DNA of 64,000 nucleotides, from assembly GCF_036250675.1 (NCBI RefSeq), contig NZ_CP109592.1, forward strand, positions 186,001 to 250,000, in the 5' to 3' direction. Origin of the DNA: Streptomyces sp. NBC_01689. Its GTDB lineage: Bacteria > Actinomycetota > Actinomycetes > Streptomycetales > Streptomycetaceae. The notes below the pieces were generated by a model, which was not told the origin of the DNA, searched no databases, and saw only the letters and a program-made list of their open reading frames with translations. A program made the translations under genes and the position numbers. This document shows, piece after piece, positions 47,764-63,265 of this stretch. Every line of letters begins with the position of its first letter. Positions within the stretch are counted from its first letter, which is position 1.

Positions 47764-49065
47764 TCAGGGCGCGGGGCACAGGGTCAGATGGCGGCGGGCG
47801 GCGGGGCGGGGAGCGGCCTTCCCGGCGGGGGTGCCGGTGCGGGCGGCCGGGCGGGGAGCAGCGGGGTGCGGGCGTTCCTCGCGGACGACGGCCCGCAGGG
47901 CGTGGCCGAAGCGGGTGATGTCGTCGGGGGTGGTGCCGCGGTGCAGGGACGCGCGCAGGGAGGTGCCCGCGGGGTGGTCCAGGAGCGGGATCTCCTGGGC
48001 GACGGTCTTCCACAGGAGGACGCCGCGGGCCGCGAGTTGTCTGCGGACCAGTGCGGCGGGCAGTTCCCGGTGGCGGAAGGCGAGGATGCCGGACTGGACC
48101 CGGCCGGGTGTGATCAGTTCGGTGCCGGGGGTCTCCTCGACCGCGGCGCGCAGCGCGGGCAGCAGGCGCAGCCCGCCGGGTCCCGGGGGCCCGGTGAGGG
48201 CGGCCGCGTGGTGGGCCAGGGCGGCTTCGAGGCCCGCGACGGCCGCGTTCTGCGGCGGCGGACGGTGGGCGAGGCTCTCCTCGAACGTCTCCCTCAACGA
48301 GGCTGCCAGGTAGGCGAATCCGACGTCGTGGGGGCCGCGCAGGAACCTCCAGCCGTCGCCGGTCAGCAGATGGCATCCGATACGGGCGGCGTCCACGGGG
48401 AGCTGGCCGGCCGAGTAGGAGGCGTCGACGGCGTACAGGCACCGGTACGGGGCGAGGATCCGCCCCACGGCTTCGACCGGGTTGACGATGCCGCGGCCGG
48501 AGGGGACGTGGACGACCGAGACGAGGGCGACGTCGTCGTCGATGTTGCGGGCCATCCAGTCCAGGTCCAGGTCGCCGTCCTCGCGCAGCGGTACGACCTC
48601 CAGCCGGCAGCGCGTGCGGTCGCGCAGGGCGTACAGGGCCGTCAGGTTGGCCACCCCCTCGTAGGGGGTCGTCCAGATCCGGTCGCCACGGCCGGGACCC
48701 AGGCCGCGGACCAGCGCGTCGAAGGCGGTGGCCGCGTCCGTGACCACGGCGGTGTCGGCCGCCGGGACACCGAGCAGGGCGCCGAGACGGTCGTGGACCG
48801 CGGTACGCAGGACGTGTTCGAGGTGTTCCTCGAGTTCGTGCGGTCCATGACGGTCCTCACGGGCCGCGCAGTCGACGACGAGCTCGCGCACGGCGGCCGG
48901 CATACGGCCCCAGCCCGCGGTGTCCAGGTGGACCGTCCGGCCACCCGCGCCGCCCGGGCCACCCGCGCCGCCCGGGCCACCCGCGCCGCCCGGGCCGCCC
49001 GGGCCGCTCCGGTCGTCCTGTCGGTCCTTCTCATCCTGATCCGTCGATGACGGCGTCGCGTTCAT
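47764..49065 (-). CDS. class V aminotransferase-like protein lacking the PLP lysine
   Basis: 433 residues with the fold-type-I pattern of EgtE/isopenicillin-epimerase proteins: VHVPSGRGIVNPV, LYAVDASYSAGQLPVD and TTP near the phosphate site. The segment after GCHLLTG, where relatives have a Schiff-base Lys before (F/W)LRGP, reads GDGWRFLRGP. Arg therefore replaces Lys (DNA near 48345 checked). A normal PLP reaction is unlikely. The N-terminus has a Gly-Pro-Gly-Gly-Ala collagen-like run. The ATG follows GGGGAGG. A TTGCCAA palindrome lies 82 bases upstream. Confidence 0.8.
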   Translation of the reverse strand: MNATPSSTDQDEKDRQDDRSGPGGPGGAGGPGGAGGPGGAGGRTVHLDTAGWGRMPAAVRELVVDCAAREDRHGPHELEEHLEHVLRTAVHDRLGALLGVPAADTAVVTDAATAFDALVRGLGPGRGDRIWTTPYEGVANLTALYALRDRTRCRLEVVPLREDGDLDLDWMARNIDDDVALVSVVHVPSGRGIVNPVEAVGRILAPYRCLYAVDASYSAGQLPVDAARIGCHLLTGDGWRFLRGPHDVGFAYLAASLRETFEESLAHRPPPQNAAVAGLEAALAHHAAALTGPPGPGGLRLLPALRAAVEETPGTELITPGRVQSGILAFRHRELPAALVRRQLAARGVLLWKTVAQEIPLLDHPAGTSLRASLHRGTTPDDITRFGHALRAVVREERPHPAAPRPAARTGTPAGKAAPRPAARRHLTLCPAP

Positions 49066-49448: not shown

Positions 49449-49883
49449 ATGAGGAACATCGCCCGCATCGCCGTCACCACCGCCGCCGTCGCCTCCGCCG
49501 TCCTCACCGTCGGCGGTGTCAGCGTCGCCGCGCAGAACGTCGTCCGCCCGCAGCAGTCGGCGGCCACCACGGCCTCCTCCGCCATCGGATGGCCGGCCGC
49601 GGCCGACTCCTCCTCCGACGAGAGCAACATCGGCTGGCCGAAGGCCACTTACGCCGGTGTCACCGGCGACATCGGCTGGCCCAAGGCGGCCACCGTCGCG
49701 GCCGACGACACCAACATCGGCTGGCCCAAGGCGACCTACGCCGACGCCACCGGCGACATCGGCTGGCCCAAGGCGGCCACCGTCGCGGCCGACAACACCA
49801 ACATCGGCTGGCCCAAGGCCACCACCCAGATCGACGACACCAACATCGGCTGGCCCAAGGCGGCCGGCAGCGCGGCTGTCTGA
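49449..49883 (+). CDS. secreted multi-repeat protein with Ile-Gly-Trp-Pro motifs
   Basis: 144 residues. A Sec-type signal peptide (RNIARIAVTTAAVASAVL, probable cleavage near VSVAA) precedes a linker and then seven IGWP motifs, six of them IGWPKA. Units are 13-15 residues with two alternating types, (N)IGWPKATYA-x-x-TG and (D)IGWPKAATVAAD-x-T, so a 29-residue pair was itself duplicated. No cysteines. GGAGGAG precedes the ATG and a terminator follows. The layout recalls multi-core peptide precursors, or a repeat surface protein. I do not recognise a family. Confidence 0.85.
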   Translation: MRNIARIAVTTAAVASAVLTVGGVSVAAQNVVRPQQSAATTASSAIGWPAAADSSSDESNIGWPKATYAGVTGDIGWPKAATVAADDTNIGWPKATYADATGDIGWPKAATVAADNTNIGWPKATTQIDDTNIGWPKAAGSAAV

Positions 49884-50124: not shown

Positions 50125-50448
50125 ATGGCCCACGTACCGTGGAACGCGAAATTCGAGGACGTACTGCGCCAGGGCCTGACGGGGCTCGGCAAGGACAAGG
50201 CGCCCGCGGCCGACGTCCCGATGGAGGCCTACGGGCTGGACTCGATGGCACTCATCGGCATCGTCGGCGCACTGGAGTCGGCGTTCCGGGTCAGCCTGGC
50301 CGGCCAGGTCGTCATCCCCGTCCACACGCTGACCGCCGGTCAGCTGTGGGGCATCCTCTCGGCCGCGCTGCAGCCGGCCTGGGACGAGAGCCGCCCCTCG
50401 GCAGCCGGCCGGCGCACACGCGACCTGGGCCCCTGGGCCGTCGCCTGA
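50125..50448 (+). CDS. stand-alone acyl/peptidyl carrier protein
   Basis: 107 residues. The attachment serine is in AYGLDSMALIGI, within a complete four-helix carrier pattern, and a disordered Arg-rich tail of about 20 residues follows. GGAAGGAAG stands before the ATG. It is transcribed in the same direction as the repeat-protein gene but lies behind that gene's terminator. A discrete carrier near a single-module NRPS is likely to hold a starter or tailored amino acid. Confidence 0.88.
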   Translation: MAHVPWNAKFEDVLRQGLTGLGKDKAPAADVPMEAYGLDSMALIGIVGALESAFRVSLAGQVVIPVHTLTAGQLWGILSAALQPAWDESRPSAAGRRTRDLGPWAVA

Positions 50449-50609: not shown

Positions 50610-50645
50610 AGGCCCCCGCCGGTCACAGCGCCGTGACGGGGGCCT
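50610..50645. terminator. bidirectional terminator
   Basis: AGGCCCCCG pairs with CGGGGGCCT, with an inner GTCAC/GTGAC stem, between the convergent carrier-protein and AAC(3)-like genes. It includes the AAC(3) stop codon. Confidence 0.5.
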
Positions 50646-51504
50646 CCCGTACGCCGGTCATGTTCGGTGCCACACCCCAGGCGCTCAGGTCCCGGTGCCG
50701 CTCCAGCCAGCCGCAGGCCAGGTCCACGAGTCCGGCGACCGGGCACAGCAGGGCACGGGCCGCACCGAGAGGACCCTCCCGGACCAGACCGGCGCGGACG
50801 GCGCGGTCGCCGATGCGCGCGTAGTCACCCTCGTACATGACGAGTTGGTCGCTGTCCTGCCAGACGGTGGTCCCGTCGTCGCCCGCGCGGGGCACCCGCA
50901 TGCGGTGGACGCGGCGCCCCGGGTAGGGGGTGAGGTGTTCGGCCAGGTGCAGGACGGTGCACTTGTCCCAGCCCACCCCGATCATCAGGACCTTCGCGGC
51001 CGCACCGCCCAGCGCGGTCAGCGGGCTGCGCGCACCCAGGCCGTAGGGCAGCGGGTGGGCGGCGAGCAGGGCGGGGGCGGCCGGGCCGGAGGCGGCCAGC
51101 GAGTAGAGCGGGTGCGGGGAGCGGCGGGCGCCGGGCAGGGTCCGTACGAACTCGGGGAAGCGGCCCAGCCGGGGCTGGACGGGGTGCACGTCCGGGTCGA
51201 ACGGGGGCAGGGACGCCCTGACGCGGGGCCACCACGTGGGCGGCACGGGCCGCTGGACCCAGGTCGCCGGGTCGGTCAGGTAGGTGGTGAAGGCGGGTAC
51301 GACGAGGGTTCCCGGCGCCCCGACGGCCTCCCGCAGCGCCGACAGCAGGGCGACGGGACCGCCCACCGTCCAGCCCAGGGCGCTCAGGGAGGTGTGGACC
51401 ATGACGACGTCGCCGCGTCCGACGCCCAGGGCCCGCAGGTCCCGGGCCAGTTCGCGGCCGCTGTAGGGGCCGGGGGTGCGGGCGTCCGCGGCGGGGTGCA
51501 GCAT
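50623..51504 (-). CDS. AAC(3)-family N-acetyltransferase
   Basis: 293 residues of the antibiotic N-acetyltransferase AAC(3)/YokD/FrbF superfamily. Characteristic segments are VMVHTSLSALGW, TLVVPAFTTY, the HPLYSLAASG loop and MIGVGWDKCTVLHLAEH. Members transfer acetyl from CoA to an amino group of aminoglycosides or of a pathway intermediate. CGGAGGC precedes the ATG. It ends the operon that starts with the 45-residue peptide, so acylation of that product, or self-protection, is more likely than general aminoglycoside resistance. Confidence 0.88.
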   Translation of the reverse strand: MLHPAADARTPGPYSGRELARDLRALGVGRGDVVMVHTSLSALGWTVGGPVALLSALREAVGAPGTLVVPAFTTYLTDPATWVQRPVPPTWWPRVRASLPPFDPDVHPVQPRLGRFPEFVRTLPGARRSPHPLYSLAASGPAAPALLAAHPLPYGLGARSPLTALGGAAAKVLMIGVGWDKCTVLHLAEHLTPYPGRRVHRMRVPRAGDDGTTVWQDSDQLVMYEGDYARIGDRAVRAGLVREGPLGAARALLCPVAGLVDLACGWLERHRDLSAWGVAPNMTGVREAPVTAL

Positions 51505-51626
51505 CCGTGCCTCCGGTCTCTGCCGTGTCCGCGGTCCGCCGTGTCCGCGGTGCCCGTGACGGCTGGGGTCCGTGTCCCTGCGTCTCTATGGCTCTATGTC
51601 TGTATGTCTCTATGTGTCCGTGCCGC

Positions 51627-51675
51627 TGTGTGTCCGTGTGTCTTGGGGTCAGTTGTGTGTCCGTGTGTCTTGGGG
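51627..51675. repeat. 22-bp direct repeat
   Basis: TGTGTGTCCGTGTGTCTTGG plus GG occurs at 51627-51648 and 51654-51675, overlapping the 3' end of the exporter gene. The flanking 70 bases are also GTCTCTATG/TGTCCG-like low-complexity sequence. Confidence 0.8.
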
Positions 51676-52923
51676 CCGGTCCAGGGCGGGCTGGTCCGCG
51701 GCGGGCCGGGGTGACGGCACCTCCGCGGTGGAGGCCGCGGCGGCCGCGCGTACCGCCGGCTGGACGAGGAGGGCCGCGGCGGCGAACAGGACCGCGGCCG
51801 CCGCCCAGCCGAGGCCGGAGCCGTGCCCGATGAACGCGGTCAGGACCAGCGGGCCGATGATCGACTGCAGGCCGTGGTGGAGCTGGAAGGCGCCGAGGTA
51901 CTCGCCGCGCCGGTCCTCGGGGGCCAGGCCGATGCCGATGCCGAAGGACCCGGCCGCGTGCCACAGTTCGGCGCCGGTCATCACCACGAACGCGGCGCAC
52001 ACCAGGAACCCGGCCGTGAGGGCGTCCAGTTGACCGGTGGGGATCAGGAGCAGGCAGGACGCCGCGCCGGCCAGGCCCGCACGGCGGGCGAGGCGGGCGG
52101 CGCCGGGCAGGTCGTCGCTGCCCCTGGCCGCCCGGACCTGGAGCAGCACGCACAGCACGGTGTTGAGCCCGATGAGCAGGGGGGTGAGCACGGTGGGCAG
52201 ACCGGTGCCGACGACGATCCACAGCGGGATGGCCACCGCCAGCACGGAGTCGTGCAGCGACAGCGCCGCGTTGACCGCGACGACCCGCAGGAACGGCTTG
52301 TCGCGCAGCGCGGTGAAGCGGCCCGAGGCGGGCGGGGCCGGGCGGGCGGCGGCCGCGGGCAGCCGGTGCACCAGCAGGCCCGCCACCAGGAACGTGACGC
52401 CGTTGGCGAGCGGGATGACCTGGAGGGCGCCGCGGGTGCCGACGGCGAGCAGGACCGCGGCGGCGAGCGTGCCCAGGCCCATGCTGGCGTTGCCGACGGA
52501 GCGGATCGCGGCGCGCGCGTTCACCCGGTCCTGGCCGGGGACGAGTTCGGCGATCAGGGACATGAAGGAGGGGCCGGTGCCGAACTGCAGGGCGCCCACC
52601 GCCACCGCCAGGACGACGAACTGCCAGGCGGTGTGCACGGCGGGCAGCGCGAGGTAGCCGCAGCCCAGCCCGATCAGCAGCCAGGTCAGCAGCGGGCGGG
52701 CCCCGGTGCGGTCGGCGACCATGCCGAACAGCACCGAGGCGAGCAGGCCGGTCAGTCCGGCGGCGGACAGCGCCAGCCCGATCTGGGCCGGGCTCAGGCC
52801 CGTGACCTGGGTGAGGTAGACCGCGGAGCCGGACATGTACAGGCCCACGCCGATGCCGTCGATGCCGTGCAGGACGGCGAGCTGCCGTGCGGGGCCCTTC
52901 AGGCTGGCCGGGAACAGGGGCAT
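51649..52923 (-). CDS. MFS transporter
   Basis: A 424-residue permease predicted to have 12 spans. It carries the loop 2-3 signature (FGMVADRTGARPLL) and an R-x-x-x-N-A motif (RAAIRSVGNASMGLG). Placed inside the peptide/oxygenase operon, it is the natural candidate for exporting the mature product. The C-terminal tail is Asp/Arg/Pro-rich. A run of heptamer repeats separates it from the GNAT gene. Confidence 0.88.
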   Translation of the reverse strand: MPLFPASLKGPARQLAVLHGIDGIGVGLYMSGSAVYLTQVTGLSPAQIGLALSAAGLTGLLASVLFGMVADRTGARPLLTWLLIGLGCGYLALPAVHTAWQFVVLAVAVGALQFGTGPSFMSLIAELVPGQDRVNARAAIRSVGNASMGLGTLAAAVLLAVGTRGALQVIPLANGVTFLVAGLLVHRLPAAAARPAPPASGRFTALRDKPFLRVVAVNAALSLHDSVLAVAIPLWIVVGTGLPTVLTPLLIGLNTVLCVLLQVRAARGSDDLPGAARLARRAGLAGAASCLLLIPTGQLDALTAGFLVCAAFVVMTGAELWHAAGSFGIGIGLAPEDRRGEYLGAFQLHHGLQSIIGPLVLTAFIGHGSGLGWAAAAVLFAAAALLVQPAVRAAAAASTAEVPSPRPAADQPALDRPQDTRTHN

Positions 52924-52979
52924 GCGCGCTCTCCGTTCGGTCGTACGGCATGACTACGGCTGTGAACTCGGGCTCGGGC

Positions 52980-53035
52980 CTTGGGGCTTGGGGCCTGGGG
53001 CCTGGGGCTTGGTGCTTGGTGCTTGGTGCTTGGGG
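52980..53035. repeat. heptanucleotide microsatellite
   Basis: Eight consecutive C(T/C)TGG(G/T)G heptamers between the exporter and GNAT genes. It lies in the probable operon leader of the exporter, where length change could alter expression. Confidence 0.85.
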
Positions 53036-53058
53036 TTGTCACCGGGTCGGTGTCCGGG

Positions 53059-53598
53059 TCAGGGGGCGGGCGGGCCGGGGCGCAGGGCGGAGTAGAGGAG
53101 TTGGTCGTGCCAGGCGCCGGCGCGCCACTGGGCGCGGCGGATCCGGCCCTCCCGCACGAAGCCGGCCTTCTCCGCGGCGCGTTGCTCGGCGAGGTTGTCG
53201 GCGTCGGTGCACACCTGGACGCGTTCGGCCCGGGTGTGGGTGAAGAGGTAGTCGACGAGCAGGCGCTGCGCCTGGGTTCCGATGCCCTGGCCGCGGTGGG
53301 CGGCGAACAGGCCGATAGCGATCTCCCAGCAGGCGGAGGTCTCCACGCGTCCCCACGCGCGGCGGAACCACTCGACGCGTCCGGCGAGGGTGTCGTCGAC
53401 GGTGACGGACAGCATGTTCTCGTCACCGCCGAGCAGGCCTCGCTCGTCGAGCAGTCCCCGCAGCCGCAGGGTGGGCGTGTGCCCGAACCACTGGTAGGGG
53501 CCCGGTCCGTCGGGCCCGGCGAACTCCGTGTCGAACCGGTCGAGGTCCGCGGAGGTCACCGGGCGCAGGACGGTCGCCGGGCGCAGCACCGGTCTCAT
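53059..53598 (-). CDS. GNAT N-acetyltransferase
   Basis: 179 residues of the RimJ/RimL-like GNAT class. The acetyl-CoA loop is AAHRGQGIGTQAQRLLVDYLF, and NLAEQRAAEKAGFVREG is motif B. Such enzymes acetylate amino groups of peptides, proteins or small molecules. The ATG overlaps the stop of the oxygenase gene (ATGA), tying it to the same pathway. Confidence 0.9.
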   Translation of the reverse strand: MRPVLRPATVLRPVTSADLDRFDTEFAGPDGPGPYQWFGHTPTLRLRGLLDERGLLGGDENMLSVTVDDTLAGRVEWFRRAWGRVETSACWEIAIGLFAAHRGQGIGTQAQRLLVDYLFTHTRAERVQVCTDADNLAEQRAAEKAGFVREGRIRRAQWRAGAWHDQLLYSALRPGPPAP

Positions 53599-54596
53599 CC
53601 GAGGTGCCTGGCCTTGAGCCGTACGGCCTGTTCGAGCACCTGGGTCTCGTCCGCCGCGCCGAGGGTGCGGGTGAGCAGGGCGCGCAGCCGGGTGAGGCGT
53701 TCGGCCAGGGACAGTTCGTGGTGGCCGCGGGTGAGGGCCTCGAACTCGGGCAGGCCGAGGAGTTCGGCGAGGAAGACGTCGGCGAGGTCCCGGGGGGTGG
53801 GTTCCTCGATGGTGACGGCGATGTGGAGTGAGGTGCCGATGCGGGCGGTGGCGGAGTGCGGGGTGCCGTGCGGCATGTAGAGCACGTCGCCGGGGCGCAG
53901 GGTGACCTCCATGCGCCGGTCGTAGGGGATGACGCCGCCGGTGTAGCGGTCGGAGTCGCTGGTGGAGGTCTCGTCGAGTCTGCCCACCACCCAGTCCTTG
54001 ACGCCGGCGATCTGAAGGACGAGGACGTGGGAGCCGTCCATGTGGGCGGCGATGGCGGTCTTGCCGGGCGGGCTGAGGAAGACGAACGACTCGAGTTCGG
54101 CGCGGAATTCGGGTGCCAGGGCCTGTACGAGGGCGCGCAGGCGGGGGTGCCAGTGTTCGGGCTGGCTGAACTTGAAGGTGCCGCCGGCCGCGAAGTCCGC
54201 CTTGATCTGGGCGGGGTTGATGTAGCCGGGGACGTGGTGGCCGACGACGGTGCGCGAGCGGGTCATCTCGGAGACGGCGGTGCGCACGCCTTCGTCGAAG
54301 GCGGTGAAGTAGGGGCGGATCAGCAGCCCGCAGTCCACCTCCTCCCACATCTCCTGCTCGGTGATCAGGCCGGTCAGGTCGGCCGAGGCGCGGAAGACGG
54401 CGGGCTGGGCGGCCCAGTGGTCGCGGAAGAACGCGTCGGTGTCGCCGACCAGGTCCTTCAGGGTGATCCGGGGGGCCGGGACGGCGTCGTCCGATGCGGC
54501 CCCGGTGGTCTGCGCGGCCGAAGTGGGCTGTGCGGAGCGGGCGTTGACGGTTCCTGCGGTGTCCGGGGTGGGCCGGCGCTCCTGGGCGGTGGTCAT
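53595..54596 (-). CDS. JmjC/cupin-type Fe(II)/2-oxoglutarate oxygenase
   Basis: 333 residues. A low-complexity N-terminal tail of about 40 residues precedes a cupin-8/JmjC-like domain. The iron triad is His-x-Asp in AHMDGSH and the distal His in PHGTPHSA. FKFSQPEHWHPRL and FVFLSPPG are typical of bacterial asparaginyl/arginyl-hydroxylase-like proteins. A C-terminal helical dimerisation domain follows. Likely hydroxylates a side chain of the operon's peptide. Coupled at both ends by ATGA. Confidence 0.88.
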   Translation of the reverse strand: MTTAQERRPTPDTAGTVNARSAQPTSAAQTTGAASDDAVPAPRITLKDLVGDTDAFFRDHWAAQPAVFRASADLTGLITEQEMWEEVDCGLLIRPYFTAFDEGVRTAVSEMTRSRTVVGHHVPGYINPAQIKADFAAGGTFKFSQPEHWHPRLRALVQALAPEFRAELESFVFLSPPGKTAIAAHMDGSHVLVLQIAGVKDWVVGRLDETSTSDSDRYTGGVIPYDRRMEVTLRPGDVLYMPHGTPHSATARIGTSLHIAVTIEEPTPRDLADVFLAELLGLPEFEALTRGHHELSLAERLTRLRALLTRTLGAADETQVLEQAVRLKARHLG

Positions 54597-55453
54597 CCCG
54601 TCACCTCCCGCATGGCGGTGAGGGCGGCCTGCGCCCAGGTGTCGTCGCCGAGGCGGCGGGTGTGGGCGAGCAGGGCGGTGCGGACACGCTCGGTGCGCTG
54701 TTCGAGGGTGGTGGTGTGGAAGCGGTGGGCGAGGTCGGGGTCCGCGTCCAGGAGGTGGCGGCCGAGCGCCTCGAGGAGGTCGTCGGGGGTGGGTTCGGTG
54801 AGGGTGAAGGTGAGGTGGAGGGAGTCGCCGTCGCGGGCGACGGCGTCGTGGGGCCAGCCGTGCGGGAGGTAGAGCACGTCACCGGGTTCCAGGACGAAGG
54901 TGTGGGTGGGGTGGGCGGTGTCGACGTCGAGGCCGGCGTCCGCGCGGACCTGCTGCGAACCCGCGTACAGCTGCCATTCCTTGCGGCCTTCGAGCTGGAG
55001 GGCCACGACGTGGGAGGCGTCTCGGTGCGGGAGCATGCCGCGGCTCTCGGGCGGGGTCCAGAAGACGTAGGAGGCCACCGCGACCGCGGCGGCGGCCTGC
55101 AGCTGTTCGACGACGGTGCGGGTGGGGCGGTGCCAGTCGGAGAGCTGGTTGAGCTTGAGGGTGCCGCCGGCCGACATCAGCCGGCGGACCGCCGCGGCGT
55201 CGGGGAAGCCGGGGCGCTGGTGCCCGATGACGTCCCGGGAGCGGGTGTAGGCGCTTTCCGGCGGTACGGCTCCGTGGCGCAGCACCGAGAAGTAGGGCCA
55301 GCGCAGCAGGCTGGCGTCCAGCTTCTGTTCGATGAAGGCGGAGGAGAGGTGGCCGGCGGGATCGACCGCGCCGCGGAGGATCCTGAATTCCTTGTTCCAT
55401 GCGTCGGCGAAGATTCCCTCGCCGCGCAGAGTGTCCACGAGCGACGTGTTCAA
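54593..55453 (-). CDS. JmjC/cupin-type Fe(II)/2-oxoglutarate oxygenase
   Basis: 286 residues, a paralogue of the downstream oxygenase. The iron ligands are His-x-Asp in PHRDASH and the His in PHGWPHDA. LKLNQLSDWHRPT and FWTPPESRG align with the sister protein. The pair may act at different residues or successively. The start is uncertain: TTG at 55453 or GTG at 55438. It lies 98 bases after the 45-residue peptide gene. Confidence 0.85.
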   Translation of the reverse strand: MNTSLVDTLRGEGIFADAWNKEFRILRGAVDPAGHLSSAFIEQKLDASLLRWPYFSVLRHGAVPPESAYTRSRDVIGHQRPGFPDAAAVRRLMSAGGTLKLNQLSDWHRPTRTVVEQLQAAAAVAVASYVFWTPPESRGMLPHRDASHVVALQLEGRKEWQLYAGSQQVRADAGLDVDTAHPTHTFVLEPGDVLYLPHGWPHDAVARDGDSLHLTFTLTEPTPDDLLEALGRHLLDADPDLAHRFHTTTLEQRTERVRTALLAHTRRLGDDTWAQAALTAMREVTG

Positions 55454-55550
55454 CCCGACCCCCAGGGCTCTGGTTTCTTCGGTGTCCGGGCGCCGGCCGG
55501 AGCGCTCGGCTGAGTGCGGGCGTTCCGGCCGGGCGGAGCCGTCTGGCGTG

Positions 55551-55688
55551 TCAGGCGTTGGAAATCTGGTTCATGATCGTCTTCGGGGAGTCGAAGGCGT
55601 CCTCCTCCTCGACGCTGATGTTCGTCTGCGCCAGCTCCTCCGGGTTGTCGGAGTTGTCGATCGCGTTCTTCGTGTCGCGGATACCCAT
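55551..55688 (-). CDS. 45-aa candidate precursor peptide
   Basis: A short acidic peptide beginning MGIRDTKNAIDNSDNPEELA and ending DSPKTIMNQISNA. It is Asn/Asp-rich, with one central EEED cluster, no cysteine and no signal peptide. GTGGAGG stands five bases before the ATG, and a 22-bp inverted repeat lies just upstream. It is the first gene of an operon of two oxygenases, GNAT, MFS exporter and AAC(3). That position, the small size and the lack of a domain fit a ribosomal precursor peptide. Function is inferred, not shown. Confidence 0.7.
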   Translation of the reverse strand: MGIRDTKNAIDNSDNPEELAQTNISVEEEDAFDSPKTIMNQISNA

Positions 55689-57868: not shown

Positions 57869-60800
57869 ATGTCACTCTCCGGCCTGATCGAGCAGCACGT
57901 CCGTACGCGGCCCGAGGCGACCGCCGTCACCTACCCCTCGGCCGACGGCCGCGGCGTCTCGCTCACCTACCGGGAGCTGAGCGCGGCGGCCAACCGTCTC
58001 GCCGCTCATCTGGGGGCGCTGGGGGTCGCTCCCGGGGACCGGGTGGTGACCGCGCTCGGGCCGGGCCCGCACCTGGTGACCGCGTTCCTCGCCGTGGTGC
58101 GGGCGGGCGCGGCGTACGTGCCGGTGGACCCGGACCATCCGGAGCTGCGCCGCCGGCTGATCGTGCGGGACAGCGCGGCCCGCGCCGTGCTGACCGAGGG
58201 CGGCGGGGCCGGTGGGTACGCGGGGCTGGACGCGGTCGCCGTCGACCTGGACGCGGACGCGGGCCCGATCGCGGCCCGGCCCGCGGACCTGCCGGCCGTG
58301 CGGCCGGCGCCCGGGGACGCGGCCTACGTCTGCTACACCTCCGGGACCACCGGCACCCCCAAGGGCGTCGTCGTCCCGCACCGCGCCGTCCTCGACCTGG
58401 TGGCCTCCACCGACTACGTGCGTCTGACGCCGGACGACGTGGTCGCCCAGGCCGCCAACCCCGCCTTCGACGCGGTCACCTTCGAGATCTGGTCCACTCT
58501 CGCCGCCGGTGCCCGGCTGGTCGGGCTGGCCAAGGCCACCGTCGTCGACCCGGCCCGTTTCGCCGCCGCGGTCCGCGAGCACGAGGTGAGCACCGTCTTC
58601 CTGACCACCGCGCTGTTCCACCAGATCGCCCGCGAGCGGCCCGGCGCCTTCGCCCCGCTGCGCACCGTCCTGTTCGGCGGCGAGGCCTGCGACCCGCGCC
58701 GGGTGCGGCAGGTCCTGGCGGCCGGCGGGCCGGGGCGGCTGCTGCACGTGTACGGGCCGACCGAGACCACCACGTTCGCCACCTGGCACGAGGTGACCGG
58801 CGTCGCGCCGGACGCGCGGACCGTGCCGATCGGGCGGCCGCTGGGTGCCACCGTCGCCGTCGTGGTGAGCGCGGACGGCAGCCCGGCCGCGCCGGGCGGT
58901 GTCGGTGAACTCCTGCTGGGCGGGCCGGGCCTGGCCACCGGCTACCTGGACCGGCCCGAGCTGACCGCGCAGCGGTTCGTCGAGGACCGTTTCACCCCCG
59001 GCGGCGGACTGCTGTACCGCACGGGCGATCTGGTGCGGCTGCGCGAGGACGGGGCGATGGAGTTCACCGGCCGGGTCGACAACCAGGTCAAGCTGCGCGG
59101 TTTCCGTATCGAGCTGGGTGAGATCGAGTCCGTGCTGACCGCGCACCCGGCAGTGTCCGAGGCGGTCGTGTCGGTGCACACCACCGCCGAGCCCGGCGAG
59201 GACACCGGGCGCGGCAGGGGCGGCGGGTACGACGGGAGTGCCGGGGGCGGCGGGGGCGGGGAGCGGCGTCTGGTGGCGCATGTGGTGCCGGCCGTGCGGC
59301 GGGTGGCGGCACGCGAGAGCGAGCAGCTCACCGAGTGGAAGGAGATCTACGAGACGCTCTACGACGACGCCGGCGAGGCCGCGTACGGGGAGAACTTCGC
59401 GGGCTGGAACAGCAGTTACGACGCCCGTCCCATTGCGCTGGAGGAGATGCGGCAGTGGCGGGCGGCGACGGTGGAGCGGGTCCGTGAGCTCGGCGGGCGG
59501 CGCGTCCTGGAGATCGGTGTCGGCACCGGTCTGCTGATGGCGCGGCTGGCCGGTGAGCCGGAGTGCGAGGAGTACTGGGCGACCGACTTCTCCGCCTCGG
59601 TCATCGAGGCACTGCGGGCGCAGACCGGGGCGGACGAGCGGCTGCGCGGCAAGGTGCGGCTGAGCTGCCGCGGCGCCGACGACCTGGAGGGGCTGCCCGT
59701 CGGGTACTTCGACACCGTCGTCGTCAACTCGGTCCTGCAGTACTTCCCCCGGCTGGCGTATCTGCGCACCGTCGTGGAGGGGGTGCTGCCGCTGCTCGCG
59801 CCCGGCGGTTCGGTGCTCCTGGGCGATGTGCGCAACCTCGACCTGGCGTCCTGTCTGCAGACCGGGGTCGAACTCGCCACGCGGGCCGGGCGGCCGGAGC
59901 CGGCCGACGGCGCGGACGTGTGGCGTGCGGTGGAGCAGCGGGTGGCGCTGGAGACCGAACTGCTGCTCTCCCCGGCCCTGTTCGCGGCGTGGGCGCGTGA
60001 ACTGCCCGCGGTGCGCGCGGTGGACGTACGGGTCAAGCGCGGCGGTGCGCACAACGAGCTGACCCGCTACCGCTACGAGGCGGTCCTGTCGACCGCCGCC
60101 CCGGTGGCGGACCTCTCCGGTGCTCCCCGTCTGGTGTGGGGGCGTGAGGCCGTCTCGGCGGCGGATGTGGAGGCGTGTCTGCGGGCGCGGCGGCCGGCCG
60201 CCGTGCGGCTGGCCGGGGTGCCCAACCGGCGGGTGCACGGCGAGTGGGCGGCGATGCGCGCGCTGCGCGAGGGTGCGGCGGGGGCGGCCGGTGCGGCGGC
60301 GCTGCTGGCCGACGGCGGCGGCGCGCCCGACCCGGAGGAGCTGTGCGCGGCCGGGGAGCGGGCCGGCTACCGGGCCCTGCCGACCTGGTCGGCCGAGGAG
60401 GGCCGGCTCCTGGACGTCGTCTTCGTCGACCCGGGCCAGGTGCCGGCCGGTCCGCTGACCGGTGTGTACGCGGCGCCCGTGGTGGCGGCCGGGGACTGTG
60501 CGAACACTCCGACCGCCTTCCGCGGCACCGTCGACACCGAGGTCGTCCTGCGTGCCCATCTGCAGGAGCGGTTGCCGGACTACATGATCCCGTCGGCGCT
60601 GATGACGCTGGCGGCGCTGCCGCTGAACGCCAACAGCAAGGTGGACCGGGCCGCGCTGCCGGCGCCCGCGTTCAGTGCCGACCGGCCCGGTACGCCGCCG
60701 GGCACCCCGCTGCAGGAGATCGTGCGGGATCTGTTCGCCGAGGTGATCGGGGTGCCGCGGCGCACGGTCCACGCCGACTCCGACTTCTTCCGGATCGGCG

Positions 60801-63265
60801 GGCATTCGCTGGCCGCGGCCCGGCTGCTGGCCCGGGCGCGGGCGGTGCTGGGTGCCGACCCGGGCAGCCGTGCCCTGTACGAGGCACCCACGCCCGCGCT
60901 GTTCGCCGCTCTCGTGGGTGACGGGCCGGCCGACGCCACCGGGCCCGGCCGGGCCGGTGCCGGGGAGGGCTGCGCGGTGCTGCCGCTGCGGCTGCGCGGC
61001 GCTTTGAGCGTTCGGGCGCTGGAGGAGGCGCTGGGCGATCTGGGGCGCCGTCACGAGGCGCTGCGCAACAGCCGGCTGGGGTCGGCGGGCACCCGGCTGC
61101 GCACGCCGGCCGCCGACGACCATCTGCTGGAGCTCACGCTGCCGGCCGGTCTGGTCGACCTGTGGTCGCACACCCCGCTGGCCGCCGAACTGGCCCTGGC
61201 CTACGGGGCGCGGGCCACCGGCGGCGCCCCGCACCGGGACGGCGGCGCGCCGGAGGCGGCTCCGCGGGCGCTGGCCGGTGATCTCGCGCCCACCGTGGTT
61301 CCGGGCAGCGGGCCCACTCCGGCCGGCGGGCGGGACGGCGGCCGTCTCGGCCTGGACTGGGACGCGGGCCTGCACGAGCGGCTGGTCCGGCTGGCCGCCG
61401 AGCAGGGCGTCACCCTGTTCATGGTGGTGCACGCCGCGCTCGCGGCCCTGCTCGCCCGGCTCGGCGCGGGGGACGTCGTCACCCTGGCCGCGCCGGTACC
61501 GGCCCGCGACAGCGCCGCTCTGCGCCGCGCGGTGGGCCCCTACGGGCGGGTGCTGGCCCTGTCGGTGGACACCTCGGGCGACCCGGCCTTCACCGAACTG
61601 CTGCGGCGGGTGCGCGCCGCCGACCTCGCCGCCTACCGCGACGGCGGTGCGGCGCTGGCCCGGCCCGGCGGGATCGCGCTGAGTGTCCTGGCGGAGAGCT
61701 GCGCCGAGTACGAGGCGGCCGGGCTGACCGTGCAGGCGGTGCCGCCGCAACTCCCCGCGCAGGACGCCGGTCTCGATCTGACCCTGACCGAGCGGCAGAC
61801 CCCGGCCGGTGCGCCGGCCGGCATCACCGTCAGCGCCGCCTTCGACCACGGCAGTGTCGGGGAGGCGGCCGCCGCCCGTCTGACCGGTCTGCTGACCGCG
61901 TTGCTCGAAGCCGCCGCGGACGCTCCCGCCACCGTGCTGAGCAGGCTGCGCACCGCGCCCGGTTCACCGTCCGACGGTGTGCGGCGGTGGGCGGGGCCGG
62001 CCCTGGACCTGCCGGAGGCCGGCGTCGCCGACCTGTTCGCCGCCCAGGCCGCCCGTACCCCCGGCGCGCCGGCCCTGGCGGGCATGGACTACGCCGAACT
62101 GGACGCCCGTTCCGACCTGCTCGCCCACGCGCTGCTCGCGCACCGGGCCGGCCCCGGCACCGCGGTGGCGACCGCGGTCGCCTCCCCGACCGGCTTCGCG
62201 GTCGCCGTCCTCGCCATCGCCAAGACCGGCGCCGCCTGCCTGCCCCTCGACCCGGCCCGCGCCCTGCCCGCCCTCGCCCGGCCGGCCGTCCTGCTCCTCG
62301 ACGAGGCCGCCGACCGGGCCCTGCCGCCCGTGCCCGGCGCCGCCCGGCTGGTCCGCGACCCGGCCGCGGACCTGCTGCCCGCCACCCCGGCCCGGCCCGT
62401 GCGCCCCCCGCACACCGCGCACCCCGCGCACCCGGTGGTGCTGGCCCCCGCCACCCGCGACGCCACCGGCACGGCGGGGGCGGGCGGTCCGGCGGGCGCG
62501 CTGGTGGAGATCGGTCCCGAGAGCGTCGTCGCCGCCACTCTCGCCCCGGCCGCCGACGCGGCCTGGCTGACGGCCGGTTACCCGGACGCGGACACCGCGC
62601 TCGGCCTGCTCGCGGCCCTGGTCGGCGGCGCCCGTGTCCACCTGCCCGCCGCCCCGCCGGACGGCGCCGCGCCCGACGCCGTCCTGGAGCGGCTGCGCGG
62701 CTGCGGAGCGAGCGTGCTGCTCGGCGGTGACGCCGCCACTGCCGCTGCCGCTGCCGCTGCCGACGCCGGGGACCTCGCGCTGAGCGTGCCCGGCGGCTGG
62801 CCGGAGGGCCGGCTGCGCGTCGAGCACACCCCCGCCGGACCCCGGCCCGCCCCCGGCCACCGCGCCTACGTCCTGGACGCGCACCTGCGGCCCGCCGGGG
62901 ACGGCCGCACCGGGAGCCTGTACATCGCGGGCGTCGGGGTCGCCCGCGGCTACACCGGGGACCCCGCGGCCACCGGTGAGCGTTTCCTGCCCGACCCGCT
63001 GGCCGGCCCCGGCGCGGGGACCGCCCTGATGTGGCGCACCGGCCGTGCCGCCCGCATCGACGCCGACGGCCGGCTGACCGTCCTCGGCGGGCCGCCCGCC
63101 GACGATCCCTTCGCCGACGAGTACGCCACCTTCGTCGTCCTGTCCGACGACCGCGACCGGCACGCCCTGTGGCCGGCCTGCGTGCCCGCTCCCGAGGGCT
63201 GGCACGAGACCCACGCCGAGGACCTGTACGAACTGTGCCTGGACCATCTGCAGACCACCCGCTGA
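57869..63265 (+). CDS. NRPS: A-MT-T-C(degenerate)-A(degenerate)-MbtH
   Basis: 1798 residues. A domain first: YTSGTTGTPKGVV, GPTETT, YRTGDL. Aligning by eye to GrsA, the pocket reads D-A-F-F-L-G-V-T-F-K, an Ile/Val-like code. A methyltransferase (VLEIGVGTGLL) sits between A8 and A9 (LPDYMIP), as in N-methylating modules. T carries GGHSLAA. Next comes a condensation-like region without HHxxxDG, then an A remnant lacking A3-A5. The C-terminal 50 residues are MbtH-like (HALWPACVPAPEGW). AAGGAGC precedes ATG 57869. There is no thioesterase. Confidence 0.92.
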   Translation: MSLSGLIEQHVRTRPEATAVTYPSADGRGVSLTYRELSAAANRLAAHLGALGVAPGDRVVTALGPGPHLVTAFLAVVRAGAAYVPVDPDHPELRRRLIVRDSAARAVLTEGGGAGGYAGLDAVAVDLDADAGPIAARPADLPAVRPAPGDAAYVCYTSGTTGTPKGVVVPHRAVLDLVASTDYVRLTPDDVVAQAANPAFDAVTFEIWSTLAAGARLVGLAKATVVDPARFAAAVREHEVSTVFLTTALFHQIARERPGAFAPLRTVLFGGEACDPRRVRQVLAAGGPGRLLHVYGPTETTTFATWHEVTGVAPDARTVPIGRPLGATVAVVVSADGSPAAPGGVGELLLGGPGLATGYLDRPELTAQRFVEDRFTPGGGLLYRTGDLVRLREDGAMEFTGRVDNQVKLRGFRIELGEIESVLTAHPAVSEAVVSVHTTAEPGEDTGRGRGGGYDGSAGGGGGGERRLVAHVVPAVRRVAARESEQLTEWKEIYETLYDDAGEAAYGENFAGWNSSYDARPIALEEMRQWRAATVERVRELGGRRVLEIGVGTGLLMARLAGEPECEEYWATDFSASVIEALRAQTGADERLRGKVRLSCRGADDLEGLPVGYFDTVVVNSVLQYFPRLAYLRTVVEGVLPLLAPGGSVLLGDVRNLDLASCLQTGVELATRAGRPEPADGADVWRAVEQRVALETELLLSPALFAAWARELPAVRAVDVRVKRGGAHNELTRYRYEAVLSTAAPVADLSGAPRLVWGREAVSAADVEACLRARRPAAVRLAGVPNRRVHGEWAAMRALREGAAGAAGAAALLADGGGAPDPEELCAAGERAGYRALPTWSAEEGRLLDVVFVDPGQVPAGPLTGVYAAPVVAAGDCANTPTAFRGTVDTEVVLRAHLQERLPDYMIPSALMTLAALPLNANSKVDRAALPAPAFSADRPGTPPGTPLQEIVRDLFAEVIGVPRRTVHADSDFFRIGGHSLAAARLLARARAVLGADPGSRALYEAPTPALFAALVGDGPADATGPGRAGAGEGCAVLPLRLRGALSVRALEEALGDLGRRHEALRNSRLGSAGTRLRTPAADDHLLELTLPAGLVDLWSHTPLAAELALAYGARATGGAPHRDGGAPEAAPRALAGDLAPTVVPGSGPTPAGGRDGGRLGLDWDAGLHERLVRLAAEQGVTLFMVVHAALAALLARLGAGDVVTLAAPVPARDSAALRRAVGPYGRVLALSVDTSGDPAFTELLRRVRAADLAAYRDGGAALARPGGIALSVLAESCAEYEAAGLTVQAVPPQLPAQDAGLDLTLTERQTPAGAPAGITVSAAFDHGSVGEAAAARLTGLLTALLEAAADAPATVLSRLRTAPGSPSDGVRRWAGPALDLPEAGVADLFAAQAARTPGAPALAGMDYAELDARSDLLAHALLAHRAGPGTAVATAVASPTGFAVAVLAIAKTGAACLPLDPARALPALARPAVLLLDEAADRALPPVPGAARLVRDPAADLLPATPARPVRPPHTAHPAHPVVLAPATRDATGTAGAGGPAGALVEIGPESVVAATLAPAADAAWLTAGYPDADTALGLLAALVGGARVHLPAAPPDGAAPDAVLERLRGCGASVLLGGDAATAAAAAAADAGDLALSVPGGWPEGRLRVEHTPAGPRPAPGHRAYVLDAHLRPAGDGRTGSLYIAGVGVARGYTGDPAATGERFLPDPLAGPGAGTALMWRTGRAARIDADGRLTVLGGPPADDPFADEYATFVVLSDDRDRHALWPACVPAPEGWHETHAEDLYELCLDHLQTTR

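Follow-up and report, generated by a model that had tools for sequence, protein, structure and literature searches.

A candidate RiPP operon with paired ROX-type JmjC oxygenases in Streptomyces sp. NBC_01689, and its relatives that carry YcaO and TfuA

The DNA analyzed here, a 64 kb window of the Streptomyces sp. NBC_01689 genome (positions 186,001 to 250,000 of contig NZ_CP109592.1), harbors a six-gene operon, all on the minus strand, which we propose makes a ribosomally synthesized and post-translationally modified peptide (RiPP), with a probability of about 0.75 judged from comparative sequence evidence. The C-terminal core of a 45-amino-acid precursor would be oxidised by a pair of JmjC oxygenases (J1 and J2), freed of its leader, acylated, and passed out of the cell. 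The operon lies where the original prediction had placed it (50623-55688), and the contents described there are all present: an acidic peptide, two JmjC oxygenases, a GNAT N-acyltransferase, a major facilitator superfamily (MFS) exporter, and an AAC(3)-like acetyltransferase (Table 1). The ATGA coupling claimed for several of these genes is borne out at two junctions, J1/J2 and J2/GNAT, where the frames overlap by four bases, and the remaining intergenic gaps measure 97 (peptide-J1), 135 (GNAT-MFS), and 144 bases (MFS-AAC(3)). The proposal is built on the gene content, the conservation of the short frame, the intact iron sites, and the pattern of gene presence and absence, each of which is observed directly in the loci compared.

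Loci were collected by similarity to J1, not by similarity to the peptide, yielding 19 distinct close JmjC-pair loci: the window, L039-L052, L077, L078, L079, and L080 (L081 duplicates the G101/L048 record). An open reading frame (ORF) of 41-60 amino acids is found directly upstream of J1 in 19 of these 19, the arrangement expected of a RiPP cluster, in which a short precursor gene is conserved beside its modifying enzymes. In each of the fourteen loci L039-L052, this ORF (41-58 amino acids) has a ribosome site and lies 86-136 bases before the J1 match; when the 106 ATG-initiated small ORFs of these loci (25-110 amino acids, with a ribosome site, both strands) were screened for the C-terminal motif P-x(5-10)-I(N/S)x(A/S)-stop, it occurred in 14, one per locus. 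The plasmid records L077, L078, L079, and L080 each have an annotated short gene at the equivalent position, and the 19 loci extend to Micromonospora and to a Mycolicibacterium arabiense plasmid (L080). The window peptide contains ten acidic (D/E) versus three basic (K/R) residues and is preceded by the Shine-Dalgarno sequence GGAGG. Its nonsynonymous and synonymous substitution rates are dN 0.068 and dS 0.26 against G101 (45 codons), and dN 0.24 and dS 0.42 against Streptacidiphilus (44 codons), the latter a weaker selection signal. The original prediction had treated an unconserved frame in orthologous loci as fatal to its RiPP-type operon, and had proposed both a search for JmjC pairs beside short ORFs and a check of the peptide C-terminus; with the frame present throughout, a motif-bearing peptide in 14 of 14 loci, and the C-terminus as the most conserved part of the peptide, a RiPP-type operon is supported.

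By alignment, the precursors fall into four types. The compact type (the window, G101, Streptacidiphilus neutrinimicus L039, NBC_00316 L077, and NBC_00876 L078) ends in D(S/A)P-KTIMNQIS(N/A)A; type I (L040-L047, L049, and L079) in DAP-MMVLSQINEA and close variants; type II (L050-L052) in (S/A)RP-MVIENINEA and variants; and the peptide of the Mycolicibacterium arabiense plasmid (L080) in FESN-RATLNMITQA, with Asn in place of Pro and ITQA at its end. The N-terminal part is also conserved. In 18 of the 19 peptides, a Pro is followed by a C-terminus of 9-10 residues ending I-(N/S)-x-A, and Ile at position -4 is invariant (19/19). This layout may reflect a leader and a core, and a peptidase gene of family S9 (prolyl oligopeptidase) is present in 13 of the loci; in the window, the leader would begin MGIRDTKNAID and the putative core, KTIMNQISNA, follows the conserved Pro. 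Asn at -6 is common to the compact and Mycolicibacterium peptides, and Asn at -3 to types I and II. The peptide has no Pfam or NCBIfam match. Searched against 392 genomes of the same genus, it matched above noise only the two copies in its own genome and G101, and the compact peptide is therefore rare. A protein database held three close relatives and 34 matches to the family profile (some being the query's own rows), and for 13 of the 34 the longest contig equals in size that of one of 120 listed J1 relatives. Additionally, the entry P0154 (Streptomyces sp. NBC_00386) is a type I-like precursor that ends right after the conserved DAP and has no core, and is probably a decayed copy. Literature text matches to 'QINEA' occurred in five papers; in the one examined, the string is merely part of a taxon name.

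J1 and J2 have the JmjC_2 domain and HxD...H iron site of the ROX fold. The iron triad is intact in J1 (H143-x-D145...H202) and in J2 of the window, and across the 19 loci it is intact in 19 J1 and 16 J2 proteins. The three exceptions are type II J2 proteins, which have lost one ligand (L052) or two (L050, L051) and are all retained beside J1; their retention despite ligand loss suggests an added role for J2 as a partner subunit, with type II J2 a possible pseudo-oxygenase partner. The structure model of J1 (pLDDT 93) comprises a beta-helix oxygenase and an all-helical C-terminal part, the last ∼65 residues being entirely helix, and its top folds are NO66, MINA53, Bacillus subtilis YxbC, and YcfD; sequence searches with J1 and J2 gave much the same results. 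RoxA/YcfD, NO66, and MINA53 share the fold and the HxD...H site and oxidise protein side chains, whereas J1 is short (286 amino acids), has the all-helical C-terminal part, and belongs to a gene pair behind a peptide. The J1 start is either TTG, giving this length, or a GTG five codons later (281 amino acids, as in database entry P0004).

In the mechanism that we favor, J1 and J2, probably paired in a heterodimer, would bind the precursor and oxidise side chains of its core at the expense of O2 and 2-oxoglutarate, with Fe(II) in the active site; hydroxylation is the most likely outcome. Cleavage would follow the conserved Pro, probably by a host peptidase in the window and by the S9 enzyme in types I and II; the GNAT and the FrbF-like acetyltransferase would then acylate the freed amine and/or Lys1, and the product would leave the cell via the MFS protein. 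In the relatives, cores of this kind would additionally be thioamidated by YcaO-TfuA, a step absent in the window's lineage. The substrate, modified sites, order of steps, heterodimer, cleavage point, and product are all predictions of this scheme, within which the Asn/Asp hydroxylation and N-acylation anticipated by the original prediction are plausible. Precedents for these steps appear in excerpts of several papers: Orn within a precursor is the target of two JmjC/cupin hydroxylases, BipG and PbsQ (PMC12707348, PMC12257519), GNAT acylation at Lys1 or the N-terminus is known in other RiPPs (PMC13060382), and in Escherichia coli uL16, Arg81 is beta-hydroxylated by RoxA and Met82 is thioamidated by YcaO (PMC13063428). 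Because RoxA and YcaO act on adjacent uL16 residues, the pairing of JmjC with YcaO in types I and II would be chemically coherent, and the compact type would represent the JmjC-only half.

Alternatively, the JmjC pair could act on a substrate derived from a nonribosomal peptide synthetase (NRPS), the other outcome that the original prediction would have counted as refuting, or on a free amino acid, the short ORF being regulatory or chaperone-like. Amino acids bound to carrier proteins are substrates of some 2-oxoglutarate oxygenases, and an NRPS does lie beside the operon; however, the peptide-JmjC cassette also occurs without an NRPS match nearby, and a conserved N-terminal part, a better-conserved C-terminus, a constant position as first gene, and relatives with YcaO/TfuA together form a RiPP pattern. 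The top characterized structural relatives (NO66, MINA53, and YcfD) also point to a protein substrate, and we regard an NRPS-derived or free amino-acid substrate as improbable.

The GNAT is present in all five compact loci and in nine of the ten type I loci, the exception being L042, which stops short of the GNAT position. For the AAC(3)-fold enzyme, the best solved match is FrbF (E 3e-62), a phosphonate biosynthesis enzyme; the window's enzyme sits instead in a peptide operon. Its score of 205.5 bits is below the curated cut-off of 270 bits for AAC(3) resistance enzymes, and the GNAT scores far under the cut-off of every AAC(6') model that it matched. With FrbF as the nearest relative and a score under the AAC(3) cut-off, we read the AAC(3)-fold enzyme as one that would acylate the peptide for biosynthesis or self-protection rather than confer aminoglycoside resistance. 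Folds of the AAC(3) and GNAT kinds do include resistance enzymes, and the oxygenases are ROX-type, such that the operon could be imagined to detoxify an antibiotic (by AAC(3), GNAT, and MFS) and to hydroxylate a ribosomal protein as RoxA does. A resistance operon was nonetheless ruled out on these scores and on FrbF as the best solved relative, and such a function, which would leave the conserved peptide and YcaO/TfuA unexplained, is highly improbable.

The pattern among relatives places this candidate RiPP operon in a wider family. YcaO, TfuA, and an S9 peptidase are encoded in 13 of the 18 other JmjC-pair loci (12 of 12 type I/II loci, plus L079), and no relatives of the three were found in the window (64 kb), L048, L072, L073, L039, L077, L078, or L080. 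In a search of whole genomes, which left out those behind L077-L080, TfuA was present in all 12 type I/II genomes covered and in none of the 3 compact ones (the window's own, G101, and Streptacidiphilus). YcaO together with TfuA is the hallmark of thioamidated RiPPs, and with both present in 13 related loci and absent from the window, the window's cluster appears to be an offshoot of a putative family of thioamide RiPPs: kin to that family, not itself a member. The original prediction that the operon fits no known RiPP class thus stands for the window's own genes and is incomplete in that 13 of 18 relatives carry YcaO and TfuA. Set beside them, the window looks like a form in which the thioamidation module was lost or never gained. 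Candidates elsewhere in its own genome were rejected: there is no TfuA, and the three YcaO genes, ∼260-275 kb from the left operon copy, are clustered together and probably constitute another YcaO cluster.

The gene order of type I is peptide, J1, J2, YcaO, TfuA, S9 peptidase, AAC(3), and GNAT, with AAC(3) and GNAT in 9 of 10 loci (L042 ends in the S9 gene region), followed by M16 peptidases in L043, L049, and L079 and by MFS in L040. Type II (L050) has peptide, J1, J2, S9, YcaO, TfuA, a third JmjC, a methyltransferase, and GNAT, with no AAC(3) match; the compact order is peptide, J1, J2, GNAT, MFS, and AAC(3); and the Mycolicibacterium order is peptide, J1, J2, and AAC(3). The 16.9 kb Streptacidiphilus stretch has, the operon aside, no match to the window's neighbors. 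In five records (HUAS 15-9, NBC_00316, NBC_00876, NBC_01006, and M. arabiense), the clusters reside on large plasmids, which are linear (139-682 kb) save for the circular one of Mycolicibacterium. In a J1+J2 tree rooted on type II, the three compact loci group in a single clade (96/100) that lies beside or within type I; this tree comprises 15 loci, including 3 of the 5 compact ones and leaving out L077-L080, with L051 represented by J1 only and the type II outgroup long-branched. With YcaO, TfuA, and S9 found in types I and II alike, the simplest account is that the compact lineage lost YcaO/TfuA once.

Several observations weigh against the RiPP reading as developed above. The compact operon is without a peptidase gene, and the J1 model shows no separate C-terminal domain of the winged-helix kind or resembling a RiPP recognition element (RRE), the N-terminal part not having been compared with RREs. 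The YcaO-less peptides keep Asn at -6 and Ser/Thr at -3, and because the YcaO-bearing ones have Asn at -3, no one Asn is common to all; the alignment offers no likely hydroxylation residue shared by every precursor type. The peptide neighborhood was read for a minority of the 158 J1 relatives (which include Rathayibacter, Rhizobium, and Kitasatospora). Furthermore, loss of YcaO/TfuA was rejected as a proven direction, given that type I monophyly is not rejected (approximately unbiased test, p-AU 0.29) and the outgroup is long-branched; the YcaO, TfuA, and S9 proteins of types I and II share 34-38% identity and differ in gene order, such that separate recruitment is possible.

Among known systems, the thioamidated RiPPs (thiovarsolins, thioviridamide-like compounds, and RiPPER networks; excerpts of PMC6511847) resemble the relatives in having YcaO and TfuA beside a short first-gene precursor in Actinobacteria; the window differs in having neither YcaO nor TfuA, and a JmjC pair occurs in the window and all of these relatives. 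The main texts of PMC6511847 and PMC8120280 contain neither 'jmjc' nor 'cupin'. The RiPPER survey, in the portion cited, reports many TfuA-linked peptide networks, one of which comprises 25 Streptomyces peptides at the operon start (PMC6511847), and types I and II may be among its unnamed networks. The biphenomycin pathway (excerpts of PMC12707348 and PMC12257519) is similar in its JmjC enzyme acting on a RiPP precursor, its MFS exporter, and its short precursor; it has one JmjC and an FRF core, as opposed to two JmjC and an unrelated core here. Of the other marks of biphenomycin-type clusters, MNIO, the B12 radical SAM enzyme, arginase, and the TldD protease are all missing from the Pfam matches of the operon, and the operon's putative core has no FRF. 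GNAT-acylated RiPPs (goadvionin, selidamides, and nostolysamides; excerpts of PMC13060382) share a GNAT in the cluster and provide a case of acylation at Lys1 of a core, whereas the window's operon has no lanthionine synthetase. No description of this JmjC-pair family was found in the literature, the supplements of which were not readable. JmjC proteins in RiPP-like settings have been noticed before, an excerpt of PMC12710340 stating that the RRE-fused JmjC proteins of eukaryotes have their closest bacterial homologs, at about 30% identity, in RiPP-like contexts.

The compact type is invisible to TfuA-based mining, and also to mining by YcaO, cyclase, or radical SAM; a JmjC pair behind a 40-60 amino acid ORF ending I-(N/S/T)-x-A provides a searchable signature. 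Compact and YcaO-bearing branches with matched precursors offer a natural experiment on the requirements that thioamidation places on the core, and the combination of JmjC and YcaO parallels the double modification of the ribosomal protein uL16.

Table 1. Features of the operon, its neighborhood, and related loci (positions are those of the window unless a locus or contig is named)
Feature	Position	Strand	Basis or remark
Putative precursor peptide, 45 amino acids	55551-55688	-	conserved position in 19/19 JmjC-pair loci, alignment, dN/dS
J1, ROX-type JmjC oxygenase (PF08007, JmjC_2, E 9e-25)	54593-55453	-	Pfam, structure model, iron triad
J2, paralogous ROX-type JmjC oxygenase (PF08007, JmjC_2, E 2e-18)	53595-54596	-	Pfam, iron triad
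GNAT N-acyltransferase (Acetyltransf_3)	53059-53598	-	Pfam; kept in compact and type I loci
MFS exporter (MFS_1)	51649-52923	-	Pfam; kept in 5/5 compact loci
AAC(3)-fold acetyltransferase (PF02522, Antibiotic_NAT, E 5e-70)	50623-51504	-	Pfam, nearest solved relative FrbF
Peptide-J1 gap, 97 bases, GC hairpin	55454-55550	-	predicted fold
Standalone acyl carrier protein (ACP), convergent, accessory	50125-50448	+	also in compact clusters L077, L078
Class-V pyridoxal phosphate (PLP) enzyme (aminotransferase/cysteine desulfurase superfamily), accessory	47764-49065	-	linked in G101, G324, L078
NRPS (adenylation (A), methyltransferase, peptidyl carrier protein (PCP), condensation (C), second A-like part, MbtH), accessory	57869-63265	+	linked in G101, G324, L078
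Secreted IGWPK(A)-repeat protein	49449-49883	+	adjoins class-V PLP gene
Type II J2 with lost ligands	L050 7259-8071; L051 about 2124-2948; L052 8935-9810		
IGWP/NWPTAP-repeat relatives	G101 (L048 16645-17355); L078 14009-14287; G324 (L049 5868-6440)		beside PLP gene
Second small ORF	L054 10531-10722	-	
Second small ORF	L055 8259-8459	+	
Second small ORF	L057 9991-10182	-	
Second small ORF	L053, about 523 bases upstream of JmjC pair		
Three clustered YcaO genes	main contig C1 502239-516085		own genome, no TfuA

The neighborhood of the operon raises the question of a ribosomal-nonribosomal hybrid, in which the GNAT would join the oxidised RiPP core to an NRPS-made aminoacyl or acyl unit carried by the ACP. 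Four loci, namely the window, G101, G324, and NBC_00876 (L078), have the NRPS, the class-V PLP enzyme, and the secreted IGWP-repeat protein in linkage with the operon, the NRPS being 18.6 kb from the cluster in G101, 3.5 kb in G324, and adjoining in NBC_00876. The latter has the same arrangement as the window in both order and strands (NRPS, operon, ACP, repeat protein, class-V PLP enzyme), with two extra small genes between NRPS and operon in the window. The ACP also adjoins the operon in NBC_00316 (L077), such that a GNAT with a carrier protein, the goadvionin-like combination, is found in the window, L077, and L078 and is not general. Goadvionin uses a carrier-bound acyl donor. Together with acylation at Lys1 of nostolysamide, it provides a RiPP precedent for acylation by GNAT (excerpts of PMC13060382). 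The PLP gene is commoner in cluster genomes (7/15) than in 25 hand-picked others (1/25; Fisher p 0.002), but in 4 of the 7 it is on another contig, in 3 of those 4 the match holds a stop, and without the three stop-bearing matches the association falls to 4/15 versus 1/25 (p 0.056). Moreover, no NRPS match was found in the stretches of Streptacidiphilus (16.9 kb), Mycolicibacterium, and 9 of the 10 type I loci; elsewhere the sole ACP match is a weak one (34%) at a distance of 16.5 kb from the G324 peptide; and the NRPS module may constitute a separate cluster found on the same plasmids and chromosome ends. As the class-V PLP gene and the NRPS are linked together in only four loci, both were rejected as fixed cluster members, and the NRPS, ACP, PLP, and repeat-protein genes are accessory, possibly belonging to a hybrid pathway. 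A hybrid product is a tentative proposition that we consider distinctly less likely than a purely ribosomal one. Equally speculative is a RiPP class whose obligatory maturase, in place of a cyclase or radical enzyme, would be a heterodimer of paired ROX-type JmjC proteins, with backbone thioamidation beside a hydroxylated residue as an option, reminiscent of RoxA and YcaO on uL16, and with some members, including the window's, condensed by the GNAT with an NRPS/ACP unit.

Beyond the close relatives, 11 distant loci with a JmjC pair or single JmjC (L053-L063) were examined over 900 bases upstream, and none has a precursor peptide of the close-pair type. A different small ORF (63-66 amino acids, signal-peptide-like) precedes the distant JmjC pairs (about 30-35% to J1) in 4 of these 11, with C-termini AGCG(D/E)CYPDVI or SCGGCPLDVI, and possibly represents another JmjC-modified peptide family.

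The genome of Streptomyces sp. NBC_01689 (9.96 Mb, two contigs) contains a second, 100% identical operon copy at the mirror position of the main contig, each copy being about 236.6 kb from an end. A further mirror-placed match pair lies near 300 kb, and taken together these placements suggest a terminal inverted repeat that spans roughly 300 kb or more. Lastly, the gap between the peptide and J1 is predicted to form a strong GC hairpin in both the window and G101 (raw minimum free energies of -47.3 and -50.1 kcal/mol), a possible transcript-balancing element.

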